DNA of 64,000 nucleotides from an uncultured Thiohalocapsa sp. GTDB taxonomy: Bacteria; Pseudomonadota; Gammaproteobacteria; Chromatiales; Chromatiaceae. Positions 787 to 16,924 of the stretch are shown in pieces. The stretch lies in the NCBI RefSeq assembly GCF_913063425.1, contig NZ_CAJXYK010000023.1:1-64000 (forward strand). The letters run 5' to 3'. Under the pieces are notes generated by a model. That model was not told the origin of the DNA. It saw only the letters and a list, made by a program, of their open reading frames with translations, and ran no database searches. Every line of letters begins with the position of its first letter. Within the stretch, counting starts at the first letter, position 1. The position numbers and the translations under genes are program-made.

Positions 787-1650
787 TCAGGCCGGCTTGC
801 GGAAGTGCATCACGCCCCAGGCGAGATAGCCGTTGCTGCCGGCATCCACCCAGTGCTGCAGGCCCTGGAGCATGCGGTCGATGTAGGCATCCGAGACCTT
901 GCCGGCGAGGGACTCGCGCTCGGCCCGGAGCACGGCGGCGACACGGCCGTAGTGATTCACCAGCTGGTGGGTCATGTCGACGATCTCGACTTCCTCCCAG
1001 CCAAGGCGCCGGGCCTGCTCGCGATAGAACGCAAAGGAGCCCAGGCTGGAGAGATGGATGCGGTCCAGCACCGGCTGCAGCACACCCTCGGGGCAGTCGT
1101 CGGCCTGCATGGGGTCGGTGAAGACGAATTCGCCGCCGGGCTTCAGCACCCGGTCCACCTCGCCCATCACCTTGTCCCGATGGCCGGAATGCAGAATCGC
1201 ATCCTGGGACCAGGCGGCGTCGAAGCTGCCGTTCTCGGCCGGCACCTGCTCGAAGCTGCCGTCCACGACCTCGATGAGCTGATCCACGCCCTGCTCGCGG
1301 TTCATCTGGCGGTCGCGCTCGTTCTCGGCCTCGCTCAGGTTCAGCGCCAGCACCCGGCAGCCGAAGCGCTTGGCGAGCCAGCGGGCGGCGCCGCCGTAGC
1401 CGGCGCCCAGGTCCACCAGCCGCGCATCGGGACCGGTGAGCTTGTCCTTGATGCGATCGGCCATGAAGGCGACGGTGCGCTCGGAGGCGTCCTTGATGGC
1501 GTCCTCAGGGCCTTCATACAAGCCGATGTGGATGTCCTCGCCGCCCCAGACGTGGAAGTAGAAATTATCGGCGTCCTCGCTGTTGTAGTAATCGCGGGCG
1601 GTCTGGACGACGTCCGAGTAGCTCTGGGCTGGGCTCGTTTGGGCACTCAT
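787..1650 (-). CDS. sdmt: Sarcosine/dimethylglycine N-methyltransferase (glycine betaine synthesis)
   Basis: Cytoplasmic SAM-dependent methyltransferase that completes glycine betaine synthesis by methylating sarcosine and dimethylglycine. The start is ATG 1650, one base after the stop of the upstream GSMT gene (TGA at 1654-1652), giving 287 residues; the Ectothiorhodospira/Halorhodospira enzymes are about 280. A longer frame exists upstream but lies inside GSMT. The class I motif LVDLGAGYGG is at residues 78-87, and WSQDAILHSGH and a C-terminal HYGRVAAVL segment fit the SDMT family. Near-zero spacing to GSMT implies translational coupling, so the pair makes betaine from glycine with three SAM. 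Confidence 0.93.
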   Translation of the reverse strand: MSAQTSPAQSYSDVVQTARDYYNSEDADNFYFHVWGGEDIHIGLYEGPEDAIKDASERTVAFMADRIKDKLTGPDARLVDLGAGYGGAARWLAKRFGCRVLALNLSEAENERDRQMNREQGVDQLIEVVDGSFEQVPAENGSFDAAWSQDAILHSGHRDKVMGEVDRVLKPGGEFVFTDPMQADDCPEGVLQPVLDRIHLSSLGSFAFYREQARRLGWEEVEIVDMTHQLVNHYGRVAAVLRAERESLAGKVSDAYIDRMLQGLQHWVDAGSNGYLAWGVMHFRKPA

Positions 1651-1651
1651 G

Positions 1652-2476
1652 TCAGGACACCTCCCGGTATTCTTTCTCGGCGACGTGGATGAAGAAGTCC
1701 GGCTCCGCTTCGCGGTAGGTCTCCTGGAAGTCGCCATAGGTATCCACGCGCTGGAAGCCCACCTCGCGCATCAGCCCCTGCACATAGCGCTTGCGCAGCG
1801 GGAACATGTTGAGGTGGAACTCAGAGCCGTCCTGGAAGCTGTACTTGAACCGCGCCAGGCTCTCGTCCACGTGCTCCGGCTCGGCGCGGACGTTGTCGCC
1901 GCAGTAGTAGTAGTTGTGGGTGGGCTGCACCTGGTGGTCCAGCAGGGCGTCGTAGTTACGCTGGTCCAGGATCAGGATGCCGTCGTGCTTCAGCGTGGCA
2001 TAGAACTCCGCCAGCGCCTTGCGCCGATCATTGTCGTCATGCAGGTGCGTGAAGGAGTTGCCGAGGCAGATCACGGCGTCGTAGAGGTCGTGCACGCTGC
2101 GGTTCAGCCAGCGCCAGTCGGCGTGGATGGTGCGCAGGATGTGACCCTGGCGGCGGGCGTTCTCGAAGGCCTTGGCGAGCATCACCGGGCTGCCGTCGGC
2201 GCTGGTGACCTCGAAGCCGGCCTTGAGCAGCTGCACCGAGTGGTAGCCGGTGCCGGTGGCGACGTCCAATACCTTCTGCGCGCCGCGCTCGCGCAGCTGC
2301 TGGATGAAGAACTGGCCCTCGGCGGCGGCGCGGCCGTCCCAGTCGATGAGCTCGTCCCACTTGTCGACGAAGGACTCGACATACTCTTCCTGATATTTTT
2401 CCGATTCGCGCACGGCGAGTGGATCATCGCCGTAGTCCTGGTGTTTGGGGATCTCGGTCCGAAGCGGCGGTTGCAT
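1652..2476 (-). CDS. gsmt: Glycine/sarcosine N-methyltransferase
   Basis: SAM-dependent enzyme that methylates glycine to sarcosine and sarcosine to dimethylglycine, the first steps of de novo betaine synthesis in extreme halophiles. ATG 2476 follows an AGAGGA ribosome site and gives 274 residues, close to the 268 of the Ectothiorhodospira halochloris enzyme; an upstream in-frame extension to 2650 is GC-rich leader and looks untranslated. SAM motif I (VLDVATGTGYHS) is at residues 69-80. VICLGNSFTHL and DQRNYDALL match GSMT rather than animal-type GNMT by eye. First gene of a two-gene operon with SDMT. Confidence 0.93.
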   Translation of the reverse strand: MQPPLRTEIPKHQDYGDDPLAVRESEKYQEEYVESFVDKWDELIDWDGRAAAEGQFFIQQLRERGAQKVLDVATGTGYHSVQLLKAGFEVTSADGSPVMLAKAFENARRQGHILRTIHADWRWLNRSVHDLYDAVICLGNSFTHLHDDNDRRKALAEFYATLKHDGILILDQRNYDALLDHQVQPTHNYYYCGDNVRAEPEHVDESLARFKYSFQDGSEFHLNMFPLRKRYVQGLMREVGFQRVDTYGDFQETYREAEPDFFIHVAEKEYREVS

Positions 2477-2757
2477 GTGGCTCGTCCTCTCGGTGTCGAT
2501 TGGCGGATGGCCGGGCGCCGCGCCCTCGTATGCCGGCGCCTCATGCCGGCGCCGTTTGCCGACACAGGCCTTGGCGCCGGCGGGCTTGAATATCCGATGG
2601 CCTGGGACGCGGCGGAAGCGTCCGGCCGTTCGCGGCGGGCCACGGCTCACACCGGGGTCGACGCGCAGGCCGTGCGGTGCGGGCCGGGCAATGCCCGGGG
2701 ATGTGCGGCGTACAGCGCATGGAACACACGGCCGCCGCCGGGTTGAGATTGCACAGC

Positions 2758-2785
2758 ATACTACTTAGTACCCTAATGAGTGCAA
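2758..2785 (-). promoter_or_regulatory. Sigma-70-type promoter for the GSMT-SDMT operon
   Basis: Reading the minus strand, TTGCAC (2785-2780) and TAGTAT (2763-2758) are separated by 16 bases. These are good -35 and -10 hexamers in an otherwise GC-rich intergenic region. The predicted start point leaves a leader of roughly 275 bases before the GSMT ATG. Confidence 0.5.
2765..2776. promoter_or_regulatory. Operator-like dyad inside the betaine-operon promoter
   Basis: TTAG-TACC-CTAA is a dyad placed exactly between the -35 and -10 boxes of the GSMT promoter and about 120 bases before the divergent MarR gene. MarR proteins commonly bind such short dyads over promoters. That the neighbouring MarR protein binds here is inference. 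Confidence 0.4.
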
Positions 2786-2897
2786 GCCCCATGTGGCCCA
2801 CAACACCCGTAACCTCGCCTGTTTCCGCTATTCTTCGTCAAGCTTTACAGGCACTTGCTGCTTTTCGGCTATCACGCACAATGACCGGGATTATTTT

Positions 2898-3479
2898 GTG
2901 AGCGAAATATTACAGCCCCAGCAGGACCCGCTGCCCGAGGGCGGCGGCGGGCGACGCGACACCGACCGCACCGATGAGGTGCTGGTGGCCCTGCGCCGGG
3001 TGATCCGTGCCGTGGACCTACACTCGCGGGCGCTGGTGCGCAGCCACGGCCTCACGGCCCCCCAAGCCCTGGTGCTGAAGGAGATCGTCGCCGCCGGCGA
3101 GCTGCCGGTGGGCGGCGTCGCGCAGCGGGTCAACCTGAGCCACGCCACCATCACGGATATCGTGAACCGCCTGGAGCGGCGCGGCCTGGTGGCACGCACC
3201 CGCAGCGAGACCGACCGCCGCCGGGTGCTGGTGCGCGCCACACCCGAGGCCGCGCAGACGCTGCGCCGCGCCCCACCGCTGCTGCAGGACGCCTTCGCCG
3301 CGCGCTTCGCCAAGCTGGCGGATTGGGAGCAGACGCTGCTCCTGGCCTCGCTTCAGCGCATCGCCGCACTCATGGACGCCGAGCGGATCGACGCGGCGCC
3401 CGTGCTCGCGGCCGGTACCGTGGAGGATGCGGCGGAAGCGCCGGCGGACGGCGCCGGCGATGAAGGGGATGCGGCGTAG
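2898..3479 (+). CDS. MarR-family transcriptional regulator, probably of the betaine operon
   Basis: Winged-helix DNA-binding protein of 193 residues starting at GTG 2898 (VSEILQPQ). In-frame codons upstream to 2793 give a Cys/Ser-rich stretch unlike a MarR N-terminus. The winged helix spans about residues 45-125: GLTAPQALVLKEI, then recognition region LSHATITDIVNRLERRGLV and wing DRRRVLVRAT. The acidic Ala-rich tail is low complexity. It is divergent from GSMT-SDMT with an operator-like dyad between them. MarR proteins of the EctR/CosR type regulate compatible-solute genes in other halophiles, so control of betaine synthesis is a reasonable inference. Confidence 0.85.
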   Translation: MSEILQPQQDPLPEGGGGRRDTDRTDEVLVALRRVIRAVDLHSRALVRSHGLTAPQALVLKEIVAAGELPVGGVAQRVNLSHATITDIVNRLERRGLVARTRSETDRRRVLVRATPEAAQTLRRAPPLLQDAFAARFAKLADWEQTLLLASLQRIAALMDAERIDAAPVLAAGTVEDAAEAPADGAGDEGDAA

Positions 3480-3612
3480 CCGGGCCTCGATGCCCGGGCC
3501 GGCTGCGTGGGGTGGAAGCTGCGTGTAGGGAGACAAGGAAGGGTTCAAGAACAACCAAACCCGTTATGTCGTCCTCGCCGACTCCGCGTCGTGCCGCAGA
3601 GGAACTAGGAAA

Positions 3613-3678
3613 CACGCGAAAAGCGCGAAAAAGGCCGGCCCTAGGCGCTGCTGGGCCGCCGTTTCGCGCGTTTCGCGT
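3613..3678. repeat. Inverted GCGAAA-rich repeat
   Basis: The left arm (ACGCGAAAAGCGCGAAA, 3613 on) and right arm (TTTCGCGCGTTTCGCGT, 3662 on) are imperfect reverse complements. They flank a GGCCGG/GGGCCG core. The layout suggests a small palindromic intergenic repeat. Confidence 0.45.
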
Positions 3679-3771
3679 CTTTCGTCGCTGAAAAAGGTCG
3701 TACCCCTTGTGCTCGAATCCGCACTCAGTGCCCAGGGCCAGGCCTGCGCACCGTCGCGCAGGGTTGAACGA

Positions 3772-3797
3772 TTAAGTATACCGTCCCCATTTTTTGG
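3772..3797 (+). repeat. RAYT/REP-type repeat end, copy 1
   Basis: TTAAGTATACCGTCCCC followed by a T run. A near-identical motif (TTAAATACACCGTCCCC) is at 5109-5125 in the same orientation. From memory, such motifs lie next to IS200-like (REP-associated) transposases in many proteobacteria; no transposase is present here. Confidence 0.45.
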
Positions 3798-4003
3798 CCG
3801 CCGGCCCTGGGCACACGGACTTGAGTCCGCCGCCGGCAAATCATCGCCGGGGCTCGGGTTTGCAGCGGCGCCGCACCAGCGCTTGCGAGCGTGGCTCATC
3901 CTGCGACCTTTGCGCCGCCGGCGGCGCGCCGCTGACGCGGTTTGGGCTATGTCACGGCGCGGGAGCGCCGTGACGATCAGGCGGTGGAGAGCGTGCCGAG
4001 GCG

Positions 4004-4993
4004 TCAGCGGGCGACCTCACCACCGGGCAGCGAGCGGGCCGCGTCGAGGATCGGGTCGAAGGTCTGCGACATCATGGCCGCGATGTTGCGGGCGTGGTTG
4101 ACCAGCCAGAGGCTGTCGTCGGCGCCGTTCAGGACGATGGGCGGATACAGCTGCGAGACCCGATACAGCTCGTCGATGGCCTCGTCCAGCGCCACCAGCG
4201 CATCCTCTTCGAAGTCGGTGCCGTAGGCGGAGCGGATGACCGCGAGGGTATCCGCCGACACCGCCGACGCGCAGATGGCCGAGTACACCCGCTGGCGGCG
4301 CTCCTTGGCCGGCACCTTGTCGGCGTCGTTCAGGCGCGAGTAGATCTTGTCCATGGCCCCGTTCTGACCGCCGAGCTCGGTGAGCAGGGCTGCAAGATCG
4401 TCCGGGCGCACGTTGCTCACGGCGTCACCGGCGCGCAGGTCGCTGACATAGGCGTCGAAATCCCTGAAGCCGAGGTCATACTCGTGCCCGGAGTCGGCAC
4501 CACCGAGCCAGGAGATGCCCCAGCGCCGCGGGTCATAGTTGAACTTCTTGGCGGCGTTGGTGAGCCGCGGGTCGTCTTGCGAGGAGCCGCCGATGCGCGC
4601 GGTGCGGTCGGCGAAGACCTCGAAGATCTCCGTGGTGACGTACCAGATGCCGCCGGGCTCGCCCTTGATGCCGGCGGCACAGGCGGCGTTGCGGTCGAAG
4701 AAGATGATCAGGTCGTTCGGGACCCAGCTGCCCTGGTCGTTCAGGCGACGCCGGAACTGGTAAGTGATGGCCTCCGCCAGCAGTGCACCCTTCTTGGCGC
4801 GATCAAGCTCTGCGTTGGCCGGGTCCTGGAAGTCCTGGTTGATCTCGGGGGTGTCCCAGATCCAAAACAGAATGCCGATCCAGAGTGCTGCGATGAGCAC
4901 GGGGATGCCGATGATGAGGCCCGACCAGAGTACGGTCTGCTTGGTGAGCCACGTGAGTATCCGCTTGATCGGACTCTTGTTTGCTTCTGCCAT
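4004..4993 (-). CDS. DUF2333-family membrane-anchored protein
   Basis: A 329-residue protein of unknown function, started at ATG 4993 with GGAG about 9 bases upstream. One membrane helix near residues 21-46 (VLWSGLIIGIPVLIAALWIG), then a large soluble part, presumably periplasmic. Segments such as GSWVPNDL, SSQDDPRLTNAAKKF and PPIVLNGADDSLW resemble the DUF2333 family (recalled, not searched). It stands alone between two same-orientation repeat ends (3772 and 5108). No catalytic residues can be assigned. Confidence 0.65.
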   Translation of the reverse strand: MAEANKSPIKRILTWLTKQTVLWSGLIIGIPVLIAALWIGILFWIWDTPEINQDFQDPANAELDRAKKGALLAEAITYQFRRRLNDQGSWVPNDLIIFFDRNAACAAGIKGEPGGIWYVTTEIFEVFADRTARIGGSSQDDPRLTNAAKKFNYDPRRWGISWLGGADSGHEYDLGFRDFDAYVSDLRAGDAVSNVRPDDLAALLTELGGQNGAMDKIYSRLNDADKVPAKERRQRVYSAICASAVSADTLAVIRSAYGTDFEEDALVALDEAIDELYRVSQLYPPIVLNGADDSLWLVNHARNIAAMMSQTFDPILDAARSLPGGEVAR

Positions 4994-5641: not shown

Positions 5642-5966
5642 GGGCTGCTCCTGATTGATAAGGGTGGGCCTGTCGGGCGGACAGGCAGGGACGCGAATGG
5701 TGTGCTGCGCGGATGTATCCGCGGGCGGCCCGGATGATAGCCGTCGCGGAAGCGCCTGTCGCGGCAAGCGCGGTCTCCGGCAAATCCACACAAGGCCCTG
5801 TCGCCGTGGCGAGCGGCTGCGCGCCGCCCCGTGCCGTCGACCAACGCGGGCTCTGCTGCACGCGCGCTGACTGATTGCTCAAACCGGGACTGCCGCGCCG
5901 CGTTGGAAGCTGTTGCAATGGGGGCAGGTTTCAGTACCAGTGTCCCAACCCCAGTCAGGAGTCGGC
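5642..5966. other. Divergent intergenic region between ndk and the BCCT carrier
   Basis: Promoters for both directions must lie here, but I could not pick convincing hexamers. The only clear signal is AGGAG five bases before TTG 5967. Confidence 0.35.
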
Positions 5967-7508
5967 TTGTCTTCCAACCCAGCTGCGGCGGCAAAGCCCC
6001 GCAACCCACGCACCGTCGTGGTCATTTCCTTCATCTTGGTGCTCGCCTTCGGCGTCTGGGGGCTGGTCTCGCCGGACAGCATGACGTCCGTCTCCGTCGG
6101 ACTCATGAACTTCGTGCTGGAGAGCGTCGGCTGGTTCTACCTGGCGCTGTGCAGCGGCTTCATCGTGCTCGCCGCCGCGCTCGCGCTCAGCCCCTACGGC
6201 AAGATCCGCCTCGGGCCCGACGACGCGCGCCCGGATTTCACCACTTCGTCATGGATCGCCATGCTCTTCGCCGGCGGCATGGGTGCGGGGCTGGTGTTCT
6301 GGGGCGTCGCCGAGCCCGTGACCCACTTCGCCCACCCGCCCGGCGATGCGCAGGGGCAGACAGCCGCCTCGGCGCGCCTGGCCATGGTGCTCACCAACCT
6401 GCACTGGGGCCTGCACGCCTGGTCCATCTACGGCGTCTGCGCCCTGGTGCTGGCCTACTTCATCTTCCGCCGCGGCATGCCGGGCATGATCTCCACACCC
6501 ATGCGCGCCACGCTGCCGCCGTCTGCGGCCACGCGCAACCTCGGCATCGTCTCCGATGTGATTGCAGTGTTCGCGGTGGTCTTCGGCCTGGCCGGCTCAC
6601 TGGTGATGGGGGTGCTGCAGGTGCGCGCCGGCGTCACCGAGGTCTTCGGCCTTCAGCCCACCACGGCGCTCAGTGTCTTCATCCTGGCGCTGATGGCGGC
6701 GGCCTTCATGATCTCCACCTCGTCGGGGCTGGACAAAGGCATGAAACTGCTGAGCAACCTGAACATGCTGCTGGTGATGGTCCTGCTGGCGGTGGTGCTG
6801 GTGTTCGGCCCGACGGCGTACATCATGGAGGCCTTCGTCAACGGCATCGGCGACTACTTCTCGGCCCTGCCGGCCTACGCCTTCCGGCTGCTCTCCTACG
6901 AGAACCAAATGGACTGGACCAACAACTGGACCCTGACGTATCTCATCTGGTGGGTGGCCTGGGGACCCTTCGTCGGCATCTTCATCGCCCGCATCAGCCG
7001 CGGGCGCACCATCCGCGAGTTCTGCCTCGGCGTCATCGTGGTGCCGAGCATCTTCTCCCTGTTCTGGTTCGCCGCGCTCGGCAGCACCGGCATCTGGGTG
7101 GAGCTGAACGGCAGCGGCGGCCTTGCGGCACTCGTGACGGAGGACGTGGCCAAGGCGCTGTTCGCCTTCCTGGACTACATGCCCGCGGGCATCCTGCTCG
7201 CGAGCATGGCCATCGTGCTGATCTTTCTGTTCCTCGTCACCAGCGCGGACTCCGGCACCTTCGTCATCAGCATGATGACGTCCGAAGGCACGCTGAACCC
7301 CAAGACGGCGCTCAAGCTCGCCTGGGGTGCAACCATCTCCCTGCTGACGCTGGCCATCCTGCTGTCGGGCAGCGTCGAGGTGGCCAAGGCCATGGCGGCC
7401 TTCGGCGCCGTGCCCTTCACCGTGATCCTGGTCCTGCAGATCGTGTCCTTCCTGCGCGCGCTGCGGGAGGAGCCCGTGGGCAAGCGCGCACAGGAGCAGC
7501 CGGCATGA
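5967..7508 (+). CDS. BCCT-family betaine/choline/carnitine transporter
   Basis: Inner-membrane secondary carrier (about 513 residues, 12 predicted helices) that imports betaine-type osmolytes with Na+ or H+. TTG 5967 is preferred because AGGAG lies five bases upstream; an in-frame TTG at 5913 lacks such a site. Family hallmarks are the glycine-rich GMGAGLVFWGVAEP near residues 105-118 and the aromatic box WTLTYLIWWVAWGPF followed by RISRGRT. TSADSGT sits in a late helix. Short hydrophilic tails argue against the long osmosensing tail of BetP. Its stop overlaps the next start (ATGA), so it is coupled to the binding-protein fusion gene. Confidence 0.93.
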   Translation: MSSNPAAAAKPRNPRTVVVISFILVLAFGVWGLVSPDSMTSVSVGLMNFVLESVGWFYLALCSGFIVLAAALALSPYGKIRLGPDDARPDFTTSSWIAMLFAGGMGAGLVFWGVAEPVTHFAHPPGDAQGQTAASARLAMVLTNLHWGLHAWSIYGVCALVLAYFIFRRGMPGMISTPMRATLPPSAATRNLGIVSDVIAVFAVVFGLAGSLVMGVLQVRAGVTEVFGLQPTTALSVFILALMAAAFMISTSSGLDKGMKLLSNLNMLLVMVLLAVVLVFGPTAYIMEAFVNGIGDYFSALPAYAFRLLSYENQMDWTNNWTLTYLIWWVAWGPFVGIFIARISRGRTIREFCLGVIVVPSIFSLFWFAALGSTGIWVELNGSGGLAALVTEDVAKALFAFLDYMPAGILLASMAIVLIFLFLVTSADSGTFVISMMTSEGTLNPKTALKLAWGATISLLTLAILLSGSVEVAKAMAAFGAVPFTVILVLQIVSFLRALREEPVGKRAQEQPA

Positions 7509-9445
7509 GCGCGCTTGGCAACGGACGCATCGGCATCTTGCTCAAAACACCGGCACTGCTTGCGCTGCTGACGCTCGCCCTGCTGCTCGGCGGCTGCGGC
7601 GAGCACCTCAAGCCCGTGCGCATCGGCTCCCAGGACTTCACCGAGCAAAAGCTCCTCGCCGAAATGATGGCCCTGCTCGCCGAAGACGCCGGCGTGCGCG
7701 TGGAGCGCGCGATCCCCTACGGCGACAACCGCAAGAGCCTGCAGGCCATCCAGCGCGGCGTGCTGGACGCCTATCCGGAGTACGACGGCAGCCTGCTCAG
7801 CCTCAGCGGCGTGCCGCGCATCCGCGACCCGCGCACGGCGACGACGGCGGTGCGCGAGCTGGTGACGCCGCTGGGGCTGCGCTGGCTGGAGCCCTTCGGT
7901 GTCGAGGACGGCTTCGCTGTGGCCATCCGCCGGGACCTGGCGCTCCGCGATGATGTCACCACCATCTCCGACCTCGCGGCCCTTCCCGGCGCCATCAGCT
8001 TCGCAGCGGATGAGGGCTACCTCGCCCGACCGGTGGACGGTCTCTACGCGCTGGCCCGGCGCTATGGGCTCAGGCTGGGCCAGGTGGCGCTCTTCCCGGT
8101 GGGCGACCGCAACGCCATCTACAACGCACTGGCCGAACAGCAGGTGAACGCCGCCGAGGTCTTCATGACCGATGCCCGGCTCGACGACTACGGCATCGTG
8201 GCGCTGGAGGACGATCTGGGGTTCTACTCCATCTATCGGCCGGCGCCCCTGGTCCGCGAAGCAATCCTGCAACGGCATCCACAGCTCGAAGCCGCCTGGA
8301 ATAAGCTCGCCGGGCGCATCAGCAGCGACGACATGCGCAGCCTGAACGCCCGCGTGGAGCGCAACGGCGAGGACTATCGCGACGTCGCCAAGCGCCACCT
8401 CGAAGAGCTGGGTCTGCTGCCGGAGGCGCCCGTCGCCCGCGAGCCCCGCGGCACGGTCACACTGGCGGTATCGCCACTGTCGGACATGGGCTACCTGCCC
8501 ATCCGCGCCGCCGAGGCCATCCACGAGGTCATGCCCGCCCGGCGGCTTCAGGTGACCGAGCAGCCCGTGCCGGCGGACGCGGTGCGCGACGGCAGCGCCC
8601 GCTTCGGCCTGCTCGGCGCCGAGGAGCTCTTCGACATCGGCCCCGAAGGCAGCATCACGCGGATACAGGACATCGAGGCCGTGGGGGCGGCGGGCAGCCG
8701 GCTCGCCCATATCATCGCCCGTGACGACGCGACCGACCCCCTTGCTTGGGAGCGTGTCGGCACCGGCACCAAGGGCAGCGGCAGCTGGAAGACGGCTTGG
8801 ATGCTGCTCGACGCCGCCGGCCTGCTGGAGCAGGTGGAGGTGGTGCAGATCCGCAACCCCGCCCAAGCCGGTGAACGACTCGCCGAGGGCGAGCTGGACG
8901 CCCTGGTGGGCATGGTCGAGGAGGGGCATGCCGGCATCGCCAAGCTCCTGGAAGACCCGCGCTTCACGCTGGTGGATATGACGCGCCTCGCCGGGGCCAA
9001 CCTGGCGCTGCGCTACCCCTTCCTGCGCCCGGCGCGCATCCCCGCGGGGAGCTATCCGACGGTGGAGGAAACCCTGAATACCGTCTCCAGCCAAGCGGTC
9101 CTGGCCACCCGCATACCGAAGCGCGAGGACGACGCGCTGCGCGAGTCCGGTCCCGCCTTCGTACCCGGCGTCTTCACCCGGCTGCCCCAACGCCTGCCCT
9201 TCGACACGGCGCTGCGCCTGTCCCTGGCCCTGGACACGCCGGAGACCGTGGACCCGCTGCTGCCGGCCTCCCCCGGGCTGACGCCGGACACACCGCCCAC
9301 CAAGCAGCGCTTCACGGCAGACGTCTTCTCGGCGCTGCTGAACGGGGTGGCCCTGGCCTTTCTGGTGGTGATGGTGCTCCTCTACCTGCGCCCGCTGCCG
9401 GCCAATCCGGAGCTGCGCGGCGGCGAGCAACCGGCGGACGACTGA
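7505..9445 (+). CDS. Lipoprotein fusing OpuAC betaine-binding and TAXI solute-binding domains, with C-terminal membrane helix
   Basis: 646 residues. A lipoprotein signal ends at LLLGGC, with the lipidated Cys at about 31. Residues ~36-300 resemble the OpuAC/ProX glycine betaine-binding domain (VRIGSQDFTEQKLLAEM; AYPEYDGSLL). Residues ~315-545 resemble a TAXI-type binding domain of TRAP transporters (VGTGTKGSGSWKTAWMLLDAAGL; PFLRPARIPAGSYPTVEE). A single helix near 608-628 (LLNGVALAFLVVMVLLYL) precedes a short tail. Start ATG 7505 overlaps the BCCT stop. BCCT carriers are not known to need binding proteins, so a tethered substrate-capture or osmolyte-sensing partner is inferred, not shown. Confidence 0.85.
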   Translation: MSALGNGRIGILLKTPALLALLTLALLLGGCGEHLKPVRIGSQDFTEQKLLAEMMALLAEDAGVRVERAIPYGDNRKSLQAIQRGVLDAYPEYDGSLLSLSGVPRIRDPRTATTAVRELVTPLGLRWLEPFGVEDGFAVAIRRDLALRDDVTTISDLAALPGAISFAADEGYLARPVDGLYALARRYGLRLGQVALFPVGDRNAIYNALAEQQVNAAEVFMTDARLDDYGIVALEDDLGFYSIYRPAPLVREAILQRHPQLEAAWNKLAGRISSDDMRSLNARVERNGEDYRDVAKRHLEELGLLPEAPVAREPRGTVTLAVSPLSDMGYLPIRAAEAIHEVMPARRLQVTEQPVPADAVRDGSARFGLLGAEELFDIGPEGSITRIQDIEAVGAAGSRLAHIIARDDATDPLAWERVGTGTKGSGSWKTAWMLLDAAGLLEQVEVVQIRNPAQAGERLAEGELDALVGMVEEGHAGIAKLLEDPRFTLVDMTRLAGANLALRYPFLRPARIPAGSYPTVEETLNTVSSQAVLATRIPKREDDALRESGPAFVPGVFTRLPQRLPFDTALRLSLALDTPETVDPLLPASPGLTPDTPPTKQRFTADVFSALLNGVALAFLVVMVLLYLRPLPANPELRGGEQPADD

Positions 9446-11922: not shown

Positions 11923-12632
11923 ACGGCGTCACGGCATCCACCCCGAGCCGAGCCTCGCCGGGGAAATCACCCTGCCGAGCTGCAACGTCTGCCGAGCGCG
12001 CAGACTTCACGCAACGCCACAACGACCGCAAAGTCGGCACGACCTGAATCCTGAGAAAATTGACGCAGCAGGACTCCGGAAACTTCCATGGCGGCCCCGG
12101 CTATACATCGGGCGACCGGAAGATGATCCGATCAAGCCCAATGGACTTCGCCCGCATCGACGCCCCAACGACGGCGAGATCGCGCTCCTGCCCCGGCTGT
12201 TCGGGACCATCAGCGTCGACGCCGTGTGCAGCCCATGCCGCACCCCAATTCCCCCAACCAACCCGGCCGCAATCGTCAGCCTGGTGGCCATCGCCGCGTA
12301 CATTGTGCGCCCTGTCTTCAACAACCGCTGAGCCCGCGCCCCGGCAACCTTTGGTCAGCAGCCACCGCAATGGCGGCCGAGCGGCTCTGACCAGCTGGTT
12401 GCGGTTGCACTGCCCCATCAAAGCACGTTTACTACGGCCCGGAGCCGTGATCTGCCATAGCCTCGGCTTGGCTGACCAGCCCTCCCGCCGCGACACCGCC
12501 AACTCCATATCCGTGAAATCCTTCCCACCTTGCGGGCTCGCAGTATCTATTGTGGATACTGCCCCATAGCCGCCAACGTCTCCCACGACGGCCCCGGCGG
12601 TGCGCTCGCTCATTCAGCCACAAATCGAAGCC
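11923..12632. other. Long stretch without a recognisable gene
   Basis: Frames are open in places but none carries a recognisable domain or a good ribosome site. One frame ending at 12331 (LNPEKIDAAGLRKLPWRPRL) reads like protein but has no start with a ribosome site; it could be a gene relic. A strong dyad lies at 12540-12562. Confidence 0.35.
12540..12562. promoter_or_regulatory. 8-bp dyad upstream of the first PKD gene
   Basis: GCAGTATC and GATACTGC pair perfectly around TATTGTG, 71 bases before ATG 12633, in an AT-richer patch. It could be an operator or the stem of a leader hairpin. No matching sequence precedes the paralogue; a different dyad does. Confidence 0.3.
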
Positions 12633-14567
12633 ATGTCTTACAGACCGCCGCGTCCAAAGCGCGTCTATGTCGCTGAGCACGCCACGTCGCGTCGCTGCGA
12701 ACAGGCGAGGTATGTCGCACTGGCGGTGGCCACCCTGGTTCCCGCCCTCGCGACAAGCGCCGAGCTCACCCTGGCATGGGATCCAGTGGCTGACGACCGC
12801 GTCGCTTACTACGAGCTGCACTACGGCAAGACCAGCACCGAGTACGACCAGGTGCAAGCGTCCACCTCGACCACTGCAACCGTCTCCGCGCTGGATGAAG
12901 GCGTCACCTATTACTTCGCGGCCAAGGCCTGCAATCAGGACGGCACGCTCTGCAGTGCATTCTCCGAGGAGATCTCCACCACCATCGCCTACCGACCGCC
13001 GGAGGCAGACTTCACCGCTGGCGCACAGAGTGGTATCGCGCCCCTGACGGTCACCTTCTCTGACGCCTCCACCGGTGCCGTCGACACCTACGCCTGGGAT
13101 TTCGGCGACGGCAATACCAGCACGCAACGCTCCCCCGTGCACACCTATCCCACTCCGGGCACCTACACCGTGACACTGGCCGTGACCGGCCCGGGGGGAG
13201 CCTCATCCACCATCAAGCAGGATGCGGTCGTCGTCTCCCATGCTCCGCCCACAGCCGACTTCACAGAAAGCACAGCCAATGGCGTCGCCCCGCTGCTCGT
13301 CACGTTCCAGGACCGATCGATAGGCGTGGTGGACAGCTATCGCTGGGACTTCGGCGACGGCGGCACCAGCAGCGGCCAAACCGCAGTGCACACCTATAAC
13401 CAGCCAGGTCTCTATACCGTCGTGCTGGAAGTGACAGGCCCCGGCGGCATCGCGACCAAGACCAAGTCCGATCTGCTGAGCGTAGCACCGCCCGCCCCTG
13501 CTGCGGCGTTCGCGGCTGCGTCCACCACCGGCGCGGCACCACTCACTGTCCAATTCTCCGACGCGTCGCAGGGCCTGATCACGAGCTACGTCTGGCATTT
13601 TGGAGATGGCTCAAGCAGCGCCGAGTCGAGTCCAACGTACACCTACGAAGATCCCGGCATCTTTGACGTCGCGCTGACCGTAACGGGTCCAGGCGGCAGC
13701 GACACCCTCGTGCAGCCAGGGCTCGTCGAAGTCCTGCAGCCGGAGCTCAAGATCGAGGCCGGTGAGCTCACCCTGACCCACGAGCTGCAGCATGTCGACT
13801 TCGCTCAGCAGTTCGCCGATCCGATTGTCATTCTCGGTCCTGCCGAAGGGACCGGTGGGGACCCTGTGACAGTGCGGCTCGACAGCGTGGACGTTGACGG
13901 TTTTTGGGTCCACCTGCAGGAATGGGACTATTTGAACGGCACCCACACCGCCGAGCTCGTCGGGTACGTTGTCCTCGAGCGCGGCGTCCACCAGCTGCCT
14001 GACGGCACCTGGATAGAAGCCGGCCAGACCGTCGCCGACGGTGATGAAAGTTGGGAACTGGGCCTCTTCGACGCGCCGTTCTCGTCTTCACCTGTCGTGC
14101 TCGCCAGCGTCGCAACAGTGAACGGCACAAACGCCGTCACGACCCGTCTCCGAGACATCGATATCGCCGGCTTTCAAGCGCGTTTACAGGCAGAGGAGGC
14201 CAGCACCGTATCGCCCCCCGCGGAAGCGGTGAATTACCTTGCATGGGAGCCATCCTGCGGCGAGGTCAACGGCCTGCTGTTCAAGGTCGGCACCACCGCT
14301 GACGACAGGACACACTCCCCATCTACGCTCGTGTTTTCCGATGCCTGTCCTGCCGCGCACGGGCAGTTCGCTGAGCCGCCCACCCTACTCACCGACATGC
14401 AAACCACCGACGGTCCGGACACTGCGAATGTGCGATGGCTGCACAAGACCCCCGCATCCGTCTCCGTTTGGATCGACGAAGAGACATCTGCCGACTCGGA
14501 GATATCCCACACAACGGAAGGCTTAGGGTATCTCGTGATTGAACCCACCACTGCCGCTGGTCCCTGA
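12633..14567 (+). CDS. Secreted FN3-PKD(x3)-lectin-like protein, copy 1
   Basis: 644 residues with a signal peptide (hydrophobic ARYVALAVATLVPALATSA, cleavage before ELTL) after a basic N-region. A fibronectin III-like domain (~44-120) is followed by three PKD domains with the YAWDFGDG/YRWDFGDG/YVWHFGDG signature (~127-378). The C-terminal ~265 residues hold repeats of the form FADPIVILGP...GFWVHLQEWDY and FSSSPVVLASVATVNG...GFQARLQ, resembling H-type lectin domains. It probably binds polysaccharide outside the cell. It has no membrane anchor and no PEP-CTERM-like tail. The adjacent gene is a paralogue of nearly the same length and layout. ATG 12633 has only a weak ribosome site; GTG 12600 is an alternative. 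Confidence 0.85.
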   Translation: MSYRPPRPKRVYVAEHATSRRCEQARYVALAVATLVPALATSAELTLAWDPVADDRVAYYELHYGKTSTEYDQVQASTSTTATVSALDEGVTYYFAAKACNQDGTLCSAFSEEISTTIAYRPPEADFTAGAQSGIAPLTVTFSDASTGAVDTYAWDFGDGNTSTQRSPVHTYPTPGTYTVTLAVTGPGGASSTIKQDAVVVSHAPPTADFTESTANGVAPLLVTFQDRSIGVVDSYRWDFGDGGTSSGQTAVHTYNQPGLYTVVLEVTGPGGIATKTKSDLLSVAPPAPAAAFAAASTTGAAPLTVQFSDASQGLITSYVWHFGDGSSSAESSPTYTYEDPGIFDVALTVTGPGGSDTLVQPGLVEVLQPELKIEAGELTLTHELQHVDFAQQFADPIVILGPAEGTGGDPVTVRLDSVDVDGFWVHLQEWDYLNGTHTAELVGYVVLERGVHQLPDGTWIEAGQTVADGDESWELGLFDAPFSSSPVVLASVATVNGTNAVTTRLRDIDIAGFQARLQAEEASTVSPPAEAVNYLAWEPSCGEVNGLLFKVGTTADDRTHSPSTLVFSDACPAAHGQFAEPPTLLTDMQTTDGPDTANVRWLHKTPASVSVWIDEETSADSEISHTTEGLGYLVIEPTTAAGP

Positions 14568-14986: not shown

Positions 14987-16924
14987 ATGACCCCTGGACT
15001 CTCTGCGTGGTGCGACTTCTGCAACACTTCGAAGCCTGTGGTGGTGTGCACGAAACCCTCGACAGTGGCTCTGGCCCTCGCCGCGTGTATCCTGTTTCCG
15101 AAACTCGCGCCGAGTGCCGAAGTCACCCTCGAATGGGACGCGGTCAATGACCCACGCGTTGCCTCCTATTCGGTATACATCGGGAAGGAGGCTGGCGTCT
15201 ACGACGAGGCGAGACAATCCCCCTCCACAAGACTTACTGTCGACGGACTGGACGAAGGCGCCACTTACCACTTCGCGGTCAAGGCCTGCAACCTGGACGA
15301 GACGCTTTGCAGTGAATTTTCCGAGGAAATAGCGACGACCATCACATACGCAACGCCCAGCGCAGCGTTCACAATCGCTGGAGCCACCGGCGTTGCGCCC
15401 CTGGACGTGGCATTCACTGATGCCTCCACCGGGGTGATCGAGGCATACGCCTGGGACTTTGGCGACGGCGGCAGCAGCTCGCAACGATCGCCCTCCCATA
15501 CTTATGCGTCTCCTGGGACGTACACGATCAGCCTCGATGTCACCGGCCCCGGGGGTACCTCCAGAGCAACCAGGCCTGCTGCGATCGTCGTCTCCCATGC
15601 ACCGCCGATCGCCGACTTCACGGCAAGCAGCAGCACTGGCCCAGCCCCGCTCATTGTGACCTTCAAGGACAGCTCGGCCGGCGCGGTAGACACCTACGGC
15701 TGGGATTTCGGCGACGGCAACACCAGCACGGGTCAAACCGCGGTGCATGCCTACCGTGACGCAGGTGTCTACACCGTCGATCTCACAGTGACAGGCCCGG
15801 GAGGCAGCTCCAACGAGACCAAGCCGGACCTCGTCAGCGTATTGCCGTCTCCGCCCACCGCCGACTTCACCGCCGGCACGACATTCGGCCCAGCCCCGTT
15901 TGCGGTTCACTTCTCGGACGCCTCCACCGGAGACATCACCACCTATCATTGGAACTTCGGCGACGGCGCGACGAGCGCCGCGCGGGACCCGGTCCACACC
16001 TATAACGATCCCGGGACCTTCGACGTCGAGCTCACAGTCACAGGCCCCGGTGGAAACGACACACTGACGCGCCCGGACTACGTTGAAATACTCCCGTCCG
16101 AGCTCCGAATCGAGGCTGGCCAGCTCACCCTGAACCACAGGCCGCAGCGTGTCGACTTCACCAGGACGTTCCAGGACCCGATCATCATTCTTGGCCCCGC
16201 CAGCACCAACGGCGGACAGCCTGTCACTGCAAGAATCGAGTCCCTCGACGACGATGGCTTTTGGGTCTGGCTACAGGAATGGGACTATCTCGATGGCTGG
16301 CACGCGAACGAGACTGTTGGCTATGTCGTATTGGAACGCGGCGTTCATCAGTTGCCTGGCGGGACCCTGCTCGAGGCGGGACGAACCGAGGTTGACAACG
16401 ACAGCACGGCCGAGCTGGTGCTGTTCGAAGCTGAGTTTTCCACACCACCAGTGGTACTGAGCAGCGTGACGACCGTCAACGATCCGGCCCCCATCACAAC
16501 GCGCCTCCGGGGTATCGATGTCGCCGGCTTCGAAGCCCAATTGCAGCGGGAAGAAGCCAACAAAGGCGCCCATCCCTCTGAGACGGTGACCTACCTGGCC
16601 TGGGAACCCGGCTGCGGCAAGATCGACGGCATGCCCTACGCAGTCGGGGCGACCGCCGACGACAGGACCCACACGCCGTCTGCAATCGACTTCTCTACCA
16701 CATGTGCAGACGGACAAAGCCAGTTCGCTGAGCTCCCTGTCCTGCTCGCGGACATGCAGACGAGGGACGGAGGAGACACCGCTAACCTCCGATGGAACCA
16801 CAAAACCCGGGACTCCGTCTCCATCTGGGTGGACGAGGAACAGTCACGCGATTCCGAGACCCGCCACACCACGGAAGCGGTGGGCTACCTCGCCATTGGT
16901 CACACCGACACTGCTGACCCCTAA
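14987..16924 (+). CDS. Secreted FN3-PKD(x3)-lectin-like protein, copy 2
   Basis: 645 residues from ATG 14987 (weak AAGAGA site). The signal peptide ends LAACILFPKLAPSA before EVTLEW. It repeats the layout of copy 1: FN3-like domain, three PKD domains (YAWDFGDG, YGWDFGDG, YHWNFGDG) and a C-terminal pair of H-lectin-like repeats (FQDPIIILGP...GFWVWLQEWDY; FSTPPVVLSSVTTVND...GFEAQLQ). Conserved paired cysteines such as ACNLDETLC and EPGCGKIDG occur in both copies. It arose by tandem duplication. Location next to an exosortase and an EPS cluster suggests a matrix or sheath protein, by inference. Confidence 0.85.
   Translation: MTPGLSAWCDFCNTSKPVVVCTKPSTVALALAACILFPKLAPSAEVTLEWDAVNDPRVASYSVYIGKEAGVYDEARQSPSTRLTVDGLDEGATYHFAVKACNLDETLCSEFSEEIATTITYATPSAAFTIAGATGVAPLDVAFTDASTGVIEAYAWDFGDGGSSSQRSPSHTYASPGTYTISLDVTGPGGTSRATRPAAIVVSHAPPIADFTASSSTGPAPLIVTFKDSSAGAVDTYGWDFGDGNTSTGQTAVHAYRDAGVYTVDLTVTGPGGSSNETKPDLVSVLPSPPTADFTAGTTFGPAPFAVHFSDASTGDITTYHWNFGDGATSAARDPVHTYNDPGTFDVELTVTGPGGNDTLTRPDYVEILPSELRIEAGQLTLNHRPQRVDFTRTFQDPIIILGPASTNGGQPVTARIESLDDDGFWVWLQEWDYLDGWHANETVGYVVLERGVHQLPGGTLLEAGRTEVDNDSTAELVLFEAEFSTPPVVLSSVTTVNDPAPITTRLRGIDVAGFEAQLQREEANKGAHPSETVTYLAWEPGCGKIDGMPYAVGATADDRTHTPSAIDFSTTCADGQSQFAELPVLLADMQTRDGGDTANLRWNHKTRDSVSIWVDEEQSRDSETRHTTEAVGYLAIGHTDTADP

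Follow-up and report, generated by a model that had tools for sequence, protein, structure and literature searches.

The stretch analysed here (the window) is 64,000 nucleotides of an uncultured Thiohalocapsa sp., positions 1 to 64,000 of contig NZ_CAJXYK010000023.1. On its forward strand it contains a complete gene for a BCCT family carrier (5913..7508), followed by a gene for a 646-amino-acid lipoprotein (7505..9445) that joins an OpuAC domain to a divergent TAXI domain and ends in a putative membrane helix. The two genes overlap by the four bases ATGA (7505..7508), with the ATG of the lipoprotein at 7505 and the TGA of the carrier at 7506-7508. BCCT carriers are single proteins that work without binding proteins, and none of them, BetP and OpuD included, is known to have one. 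The evidence below makes it very likely that this carrier and this lipoprotein form a dedicated partnership, and a carrier class thought to work alone would thus probably have a dedicated outside partner.

The carrier matches the whole of the Pfam BCCT profile (PF02028, 1-485 of 485; 545.6 bits, E 1e-163) and scores above the cut-off of TIGR00842. Against NF047988, the model for glycine betaine BCCT carriers, it reaches 516 bits, which is below the cut-off of 650. The start of the gene is uncertain because three codons of the open frame 5913-7508, namely TTG 5913, GTG 5940 and TTG 5967, are all in frame. The aromatic substrate box of transmembrane segments 4 and 8 (TM4 and TM8) is present as the equivalents of W189, W194, Y197, W373, W374 and W377 in BetP numbering, and the position equivalent to W371 is Leu.

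The lipoprotein begins with a signal sequence and a lipobox whose cysteine is Cys31 (7505..7597). Its OpuAC domain (residues 36-301; 7610..8407) is recognised by PF04069 with 150.7 bits (E 7e-44, cut-off 21.2), and Foldseek finds EgtUC, OpuBC, OpuCC and ProX nearest to it (TM score to target 0.89-0.93, best chain of each). The TAXI domain as modelled spans residues 312-606 (8438..9322). TIGR02122, the TAXI profile, matches residues 387-542 with 54.8 bits (E 6.6e-15), below its cut-off of 84.35, and Pfam NMT1_3 also recognises the domain, above its cut-off (E 2e-8). An AlphaFold model of the whole lipoprotein, made from an alignment of 31 sequences, has a mean pLDDT of 84.8 and a pTM of 0.58, and the TAXI part modelled alone (312-606) reaches 88.2 and 0.85, respectively; both binding domains are of high confidence in the models. 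The seven best Foldseek chains for the TAXI domain come from six entries titled TAXI, VcGluP, VCA0144, immunogenic protein and putative GluR0 ligand binding core (1us4), with TM scores of 0.64-0.67, or 0.51-0.55 for VCA0144. In the model the TAXI domain is complete (about residues 315-605), although the sequence profile recognises only its later part. It is followed by a predicted C-terminal membrane helix (residues 607-628; 9323..9388), where hydropathy has its maximum of 2.54, and by a short tail.

The first-pass annotation of this DNA had described the ATGA overlap and a lipoprotein with two distinct binding-type domains and a C-terminal helix, and sequence, profiles, AlphaFold and Foldseek all bear this out. 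Its TAXI assignment stands by NMT1_3 and by fold, with the correction that the domain is complete in the model. It had also proposed that the protein is held to the membrane at both ends; in agreement, the lipobox Cys is invariant in all 33 full-length fusion proteins of the alignment described below, and a C-terminal hydrophobic helix is present in 33/33. A phage origin was considered and set aside: fourteen phage records match the lipoprotein, but none covers 80% of the query, and the five listed match the OpuAC part only.

Pairing of the fusion with a BCCT subfamily

Relatives came from the genus, from a set of 369 genomes of the class and from a single scan of a species-genome collection (best 80 of 128 confirmed loci). 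Loci are cited below by L numbers and genomes by G numbers. There were 37 distinct OpuAC-TAXI fusion loci, of which 33 are full length, two are partial (L010 and L053), one starts at a contig end (L041) and one is truncated (L049, equal to L017). The 33-row alignment leaves out these last four loci as well as L003, L004, L005 and L020, which are protein-identical to L021, L033, L030 and L050, respectively.

A BCCT gene lies directly upstream of the fusion in 35/37 distinct loci. It is on the same strand in 33/33 full-length cases, and it is also present upstream of both partial fusions at contig ends. The remaining two are L041, whose contig begins at the fusion, and the truncated copy L049, which has no BCCT gene. 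Among the 33 upstream genes, that of L031 is frame-broken, that of L021 has a large internal deletion, and those of L026 and L039 are cut by the contig start. The overlap is exactly four bases in 19/33 full-length loci (the window and 18 of the other 32), and the spacing, with script-chosen starts, is between -8 and +27 bases in all but L031. By contrast, a BCCT gene was found at none of 47 loci with an OpuAC domain only, 40 of which have at least 1.5 kilobases (kb) upstream of the match. Chance or a local accident is ruled out by this difference. The fusions thus do not lie mostly away from BCCT genes, and the coupling that had been supposed from the window holds well beyond it.

The pair recurs in many halophilic and marine bacteria. 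Both plasmid records that were fetched with a fusion have the BCCT gene upstream, annotated in the Martelella sp. NC18 plasmid and unannotated, in two frames, in the Paracoccus aminovorans plasmid; a Martelella sp. NC20 plasmid is a third plasmid record among the matches listed. The genome with the truncated copy (L017 1450-2835; L049 1724-3109), which has no signal sequence, also has intact pairs, and by eye the copy in L017 is preceded by a GGDEF-like gene and followed by an MscK-like frame. In L027 a second BCCT gene (2610-4205), of the unpaired type and about 38% identical to that of the window, lies directly upstream of the paired one.

Public annotation of the lipoprotein in the plasmid records is glycine betaine ABC transporter substrate-binding protein, which would suit a protein that serves an ABC or TRAP permease in trans, its BCCT neighbour being incidental. 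The usual partners of OpuAC domains are indeed ABC importers, and those of TAXI domains are TRAP transporters; moreover, 98 neighbouring frames (of 127 listed) at 17 loci gave three ABC_tran and two SBP_bac_3 matches. No ABC or TRAP permease, however, is among the 25 families listed, of 152 in all, for those frames, and no relative of the EgtU-type permease was found in the 42 stretches searched. The window genome (G000) has two DctM genes and, on contig 19 (75368-75967, L160), a TAXI-like match of 56.4 bits in a 492-amino-acid frame that equals the window's own in strength. Both DctM genes are on other contigs than the pair, the gene beside the fusion is a BCCT and not a TRAP membrane gene, and no TAXI match in this genome passes the family cut-off. 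Service in trans also runs counter to the pairing counts, and we consider it extremely unlikely.

The pairing also holds in the reverse direction, from the carrier to the fusion. The window genome has six BCCT matches. Two of them belong to the subfamily, scoring 1140 and 605 bits against the window protein, and each of the two is paired; the other four (331-394 bits) are unpaired. Across 398 genomes of the phylum, E 1e-130 was reached only by these two and by one match in G720, and 3/3 are paired. Among 295 genomes of the family of G720, all six BCCT matches at 598-654 bits, two of which are L043 and L034, are followed by an OpuAC domain, and the TAXI domain is visible in five of them before the fetched stretch ends; at 407-417 bits the count is 0/4. 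In the phylum and G720-family samples, scoring was limited to the best 3-4 candidates of each genome. The sampled genomes thus hold eight distinct subfamily matches, all paired, and eight more distant BCCTs, none paired. L043, a record of G720, is titled Rhodobacteraceae. L034 is titled Oceanobacillus sp. HTM 045, yet it has sequence in common with L152, which comes from a genome of the G720 family, and its assembly is probably mislabelled or contaminated. Therefore, the titles Phycisphaerales (L023) and Verrucomicrobiia (L022) are also to be read with care.

The carriers were further compared in a BCCT set without the frame-broken L031 and L141 and the deleted L021; for the tree, rows of 400 amino acids or fewer (L039) were additionally left out and over-long open frames were trimmed at their N-termini. 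In a quick tree of 49 BCCTs, 37 of the 38 paired rows cluster together with a support of 86 and are separate from the 11 remaining BCCTs. L102 (G155), a deep paired member, falls outside on a long branch, and a single clade of all 38 was not rejected (p 0.433). Moreover, the pairwise distances of the two proteins run in parallel over 30 loci (Mantel r 0.93; largest of 2000 permutations 0.29).

Ligand sites and osmotic neighbourhood

Cage positions were taken from the available text of the EgtUC/ProX literature (PMC9732360) and mapped through an EgtU-like protein in L091. The window OpuAC domain keeps all four aromatics as Tyr93, Phe137, Phe220 and Tyr244, together with Asp135, and so has two Tyr and two Phe where ProX-type betaine binders have four Tyr. 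All four positions are Tyr or Phe in 21/33 proteins, three are in L031 and L032, and two are in L033. Nine paired proteins have at most one cage aromatic (L038, L039, L040, L042, L044, L045, L046, L051 and L073); their titles are Thioalkalivibrio, Wenzhouxiangella or Wenzhouxiangellaceae, Pseudohaliea and a gammaproteobacterium. In 39 rows of linked BCCTs, the TM4 box is W, W, Y in 38/38 that hold the region, and TM8 has two Trp in 39/39, with Trp at the third position in 37 and Phe in two. The linked BCCTs do not have Thr at T246 and T250, positions of a Na1-type site. For the TAXI domain, a Gln is critical for glutamate binding in VcGluP according to the accessible part of PMC11574862. This residue (Q93 of VcGluP, Q78 of TtGluBP) is replaced by G, S or P in all 31 TAXI domains compared, and an Arg near the lost position is invariant in them.

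A cage of this kind could serve delivery: the OpuAC domain would bind betaine and pass it on to the carrier, in the manner of the binding proteins of TRAP transporters and of the mechanism put forward for TAXI-GltS. In that case the carrier would count as a binding-protein-dependent secondary transporter on a LeuT-type fold. The full cage in the majority, window included, fits this, and the OpuAC model is closest to ligand-bound entries, for example EgtUC with ergothioneine and ProX with proline betaine (TM score to target 0.90-0.93). Entries titled apo or open are farther from the model (4wep 0.68-0.71, 4nd9 0.71), yet the ligand-co-crystallised 4ne4 is also at 0.71. The loss of the cage in nine proteins that keep the pair, with the substrate box of their carriers retained, argues against delivery by the OpuAC domain as a universal mode, and the uniform loss of the Gln speaks against it for the TAXI domain. 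BCCT carriers, moreover, have the LeuT-type fold and are not elevators. The known binding-protein-dependent secondary carriers, by contrast, appear to be elevators in the available text of PMC12344293, which also describes a TAXI protein translationally coupled to GltS, a point in favour of delivery. On this evidence we regard delivery as possible but rather doubtful.

MscS/MscK-type channel genes lie within about 6 kb of the fusion in 11 loci (L030, L033, L038, L040, L042, L044, L048, L051, L073, L142 and L145), among which is the second pair of the window genome. The genes of L038, L042 and L073 are ordered on one strand as mscS, META/NlpE-type lipoprotein, BCCT and fusion, and in L044 the first start codon of the mscS frame is at the stop of the fusion. 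The MscS-type channel adjoins the META-type lipoprotein gene in L038, L040, L042, L044, L051, L073 and L142 (META/NlpE/YscW in one scanned), and their recurrence around the pair gives the impression of a separate osmotic gene cluster.

These neighbours raise the alternative that the lipoprotein is a scaffold or assembly factor, which would stabilise or place the carrier, possibly with MscS-type channels and envelope proteins, its ligand binding being vestigial. MscS-type genes are near six of the nine cage-less fusions (L038, L040, L042, L044, L051 and L073) and a META-type lipoprotein gene is near eight (all but L039), and invariant alignment positions in both the OpuAC and TAXI domains would suit such a role. 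Drift, however, would not preserve the four cage aromatics where they are kept, in 21/33, and we think a scaffold improbable.

In 12 distinct loci (L024-L029, L034-L037, L043 and L141), a UspA gene follows the fusion at a distance of no more than about 40 bases, and it overlaps the fusion as annotated in L141. Eleven of these records have alphaproteobacterial titles, and the twelfth is L034, titled Oceanobacillus. The UspA and MscS sets are disjoint, and an osmotic-stress neighbourhood is thus present in 23 loci other than the window; 17/40 distinct stretches have neither gene, some of them being too short to tell. These neighbours suggest osmotic control. UspA directly downstream, together with the C-terminal helix in every protein, could also point to a stand-alone osmolyte sensor that signals across the membrane through the helix, to UspA for instance, and does not act directly on the carrier. 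The cytoplasmic tails, of at most 24 residues after the hydropathy window, leave no room for an output domain, and UspA was not found in 28/40 distinct stretches, several of which end near the fusion. A stand-alone sensor therefore seems very unlikely to us.

In the window itself, two genes on the reverse strand encode enzymes of de novo glycine betaine synthesis. One is a glycine/sarcosine N-methyltransferase (1652..2650; NCBIfam NF051855, 494 bits, cut-off 350; PDB 5gwx, E 1e-121) and the other resembles a sarcosine/dimethylglycine N-methyltransferase (787..1737; NF041675, 427 bits, below the cut-off of 550; PDB 2o57, E 1e-70). A gene for a MarR-type regulator (2793-3479, forward strand) lies beside them. 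G002, a relative at 70%, has a similar betaine-synthesis cluster about 7 kb from its pair. Given the betaine-synthesis genes near the window pair, glycine betaine would be the likeliest osmolyte there. Elsewhere in the window, two tandem, similar-looking proteins are encoded on the forward strand at 12600-14567 and 14987-16924; the first contains fn3 and PKD repeats and matches an H-type lectin profile below its cut-off, and the second is judged from its sequence alone.

Proposed working of the pair

We propose that the two genes encode one transport unit, in which a BCCT secondary carrier for a betaine-like osmolyte would be joined by an accessory subunit, probably made in step with it through overlapping translation. 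The subunit would be lipid-anchored at its N-terminus and would cross the inner membrane at its C-terminus, and we propose that this double anchoring keeps the two binding domains beside the outer face of the carrier, where they may touch it. In the window protein, the most likely ligand on which the OpuAC domain closes is a periplasmic quaternary ammonium osmolyte, and the closed state of the domain would gate or activate the carrier, without being obligatory for substrate loading. The TAXI domain, its glutamate determinant lost, would most likely be a docking or coupling module, or else the reader of a second solute. We give about an even chance to the view that the subunit in this way senses the osmolyte and controls the carrier. 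Two findings favour control over obligate delivery: the carrier's own binding site is retained, and in one lineage the pair persists although the cage is gone. Since the cage-less cases are a single lineage, this point is not strong, and delivery may still apply to the cage-bearing majority. The first-pass annotation had offered a carrier assisted or regulated by a binding protein, or a betaine sensor that controls it. The dedicated partnership within that proposal is well supported by the pairing counts, and the sequence does not tell feeding, gating and sensing apart.

Several observations weigh against partnership with control. In G002, a metagenome-assembled genome titled Thiohalocapsa sp., the BCCT gene (L003 3438-4259; L021 4982-5884) has lost about 283 codons in frame beside an intact lipoprotein gene. 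A faulty assembly or genuine decay may explain this; if the assembly is right, the case sits oddly with a strict pair. Because the genome samples are thin, the subfamily may also have members without a partner. The parallel divergence may reflect shared descent only, which by itself could yield an r of 0.93; it tells us that the pair travels together and nothing about the proteins touching. The nine cage-less proteins resemble one lineage and may stem from a single event with a changed ligand, and the full cage in 21/33 fits delivery equally well. Nine unpaired BCCT rows (E. coli BetT and CaiT excluded) carry the same TM4 box, so that the box indicates no more than a carrier still able to bind on its own, including where the cage is lost. 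Finally, neither UspA nor MscS genes are near the pair in the window, and betaine-synthesis genes were found near the pair at none of the searched loci other than the window and G002.

Comparison with known systems

The carrier shares with BetP, the model osmosensing transporter, with OpuD and with other BCCTs their common fold family, the TM4 aromatic box and the Thr-Ser of the Na2 site. A widespread BCCT subfamily with a dedicated outside subunit would reveal a second way of controlling osmolyte uptake. A literature search that covers few subscription journals gave, in titles, opening lines of abstracts and passages of text, no description of a BCCT carrier with a binding protein, and the available texts of PMC6207618, PMC5818414, PMC7876524 and PMC13342039 contain no mention of one.

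The OpuAC domain resembles OpuBC, OpuCC, ProX and EgtUC (subcluster F-III) in fold and, in 21/33 proteins, in the four cage aromatics. Those proteins serve ABC importers, whereas the present domain shares its chain with TAXI and a membrane helix and has a BCCT as partner. The GbsU lipoproteins are likewise of the osmolyte-binding type; they have an aromatic cage, lack neighbouring ABC transporter genes and are found beside gbsR-gbsA-gbsB instead of a BCCT gene, and no TAXI domain is mentioned in the accessible part of PMC6207618. TeaABC, too, carries an osmolyte with the help of a binding protein, and the neighbouring gene for the universal stress protein TeaD is reported to regulate it (cited in the available text of PMC9453808); it is a TRAP system for ectoine, unlike the window carrier. 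TRAP transporters with TAXI proteins (VcGluP, TtGluBP) share the TAXI fold; here the partner is a BCCT, and no TRAP permease was found beside the fusion.

The closest parallel is TAXI-GltS, represented by BP0403/BP0402 of Bordetella pertussis, in which the gene of a predicted TAXI lipoprotein overlaps by a few bases with that of a normally solitary secondary carrier and functional coupling was inferred as well (available text of PMC12344293). The same text describes lipoproteins as apparently commoner among TAXI than among DctP-type binding proteins. The two systems differ in the carrier, GltS (elevator-type by modelling) against BCCT, and in the extra domain, PilO-like against OpuAC. Moreover, TAXI-GltS keeps the glutamate-binding Y and Q, of which the window family has lost the Q, and no C-terminal membrane helix is mentioned for it in that text, whereas the window lipoprotein has one. 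Its authors suggest there that an elevator mechanism may be needed for the use of a binding protein and that further carrier classes would allow a test (PMC12344293). If transport by the present pair depends on the lipoprotein, the elevator rule falls. Should the lipoprotein act as a regulator only, domains that feed carriers elsewhere would here have become sensors, a step that the cage-less clade may illustrate. With its carrier on a LeuT-type fold, the pair tests that idea directly. It is a tentative proposal, and one we think unlikely rather than likely, that this LeuT-fold BCCT is a true binding-protein-dependent transporter, fed or licensed by a doubly tethered two-domain protein and, in one gammaproteobacterial lineage, wired with MscS channels as an osmolyte uptake-and-release module. 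There is a real chance that the pair is the first of the binding-protein-coupled secondary carriers outside the elevator class.

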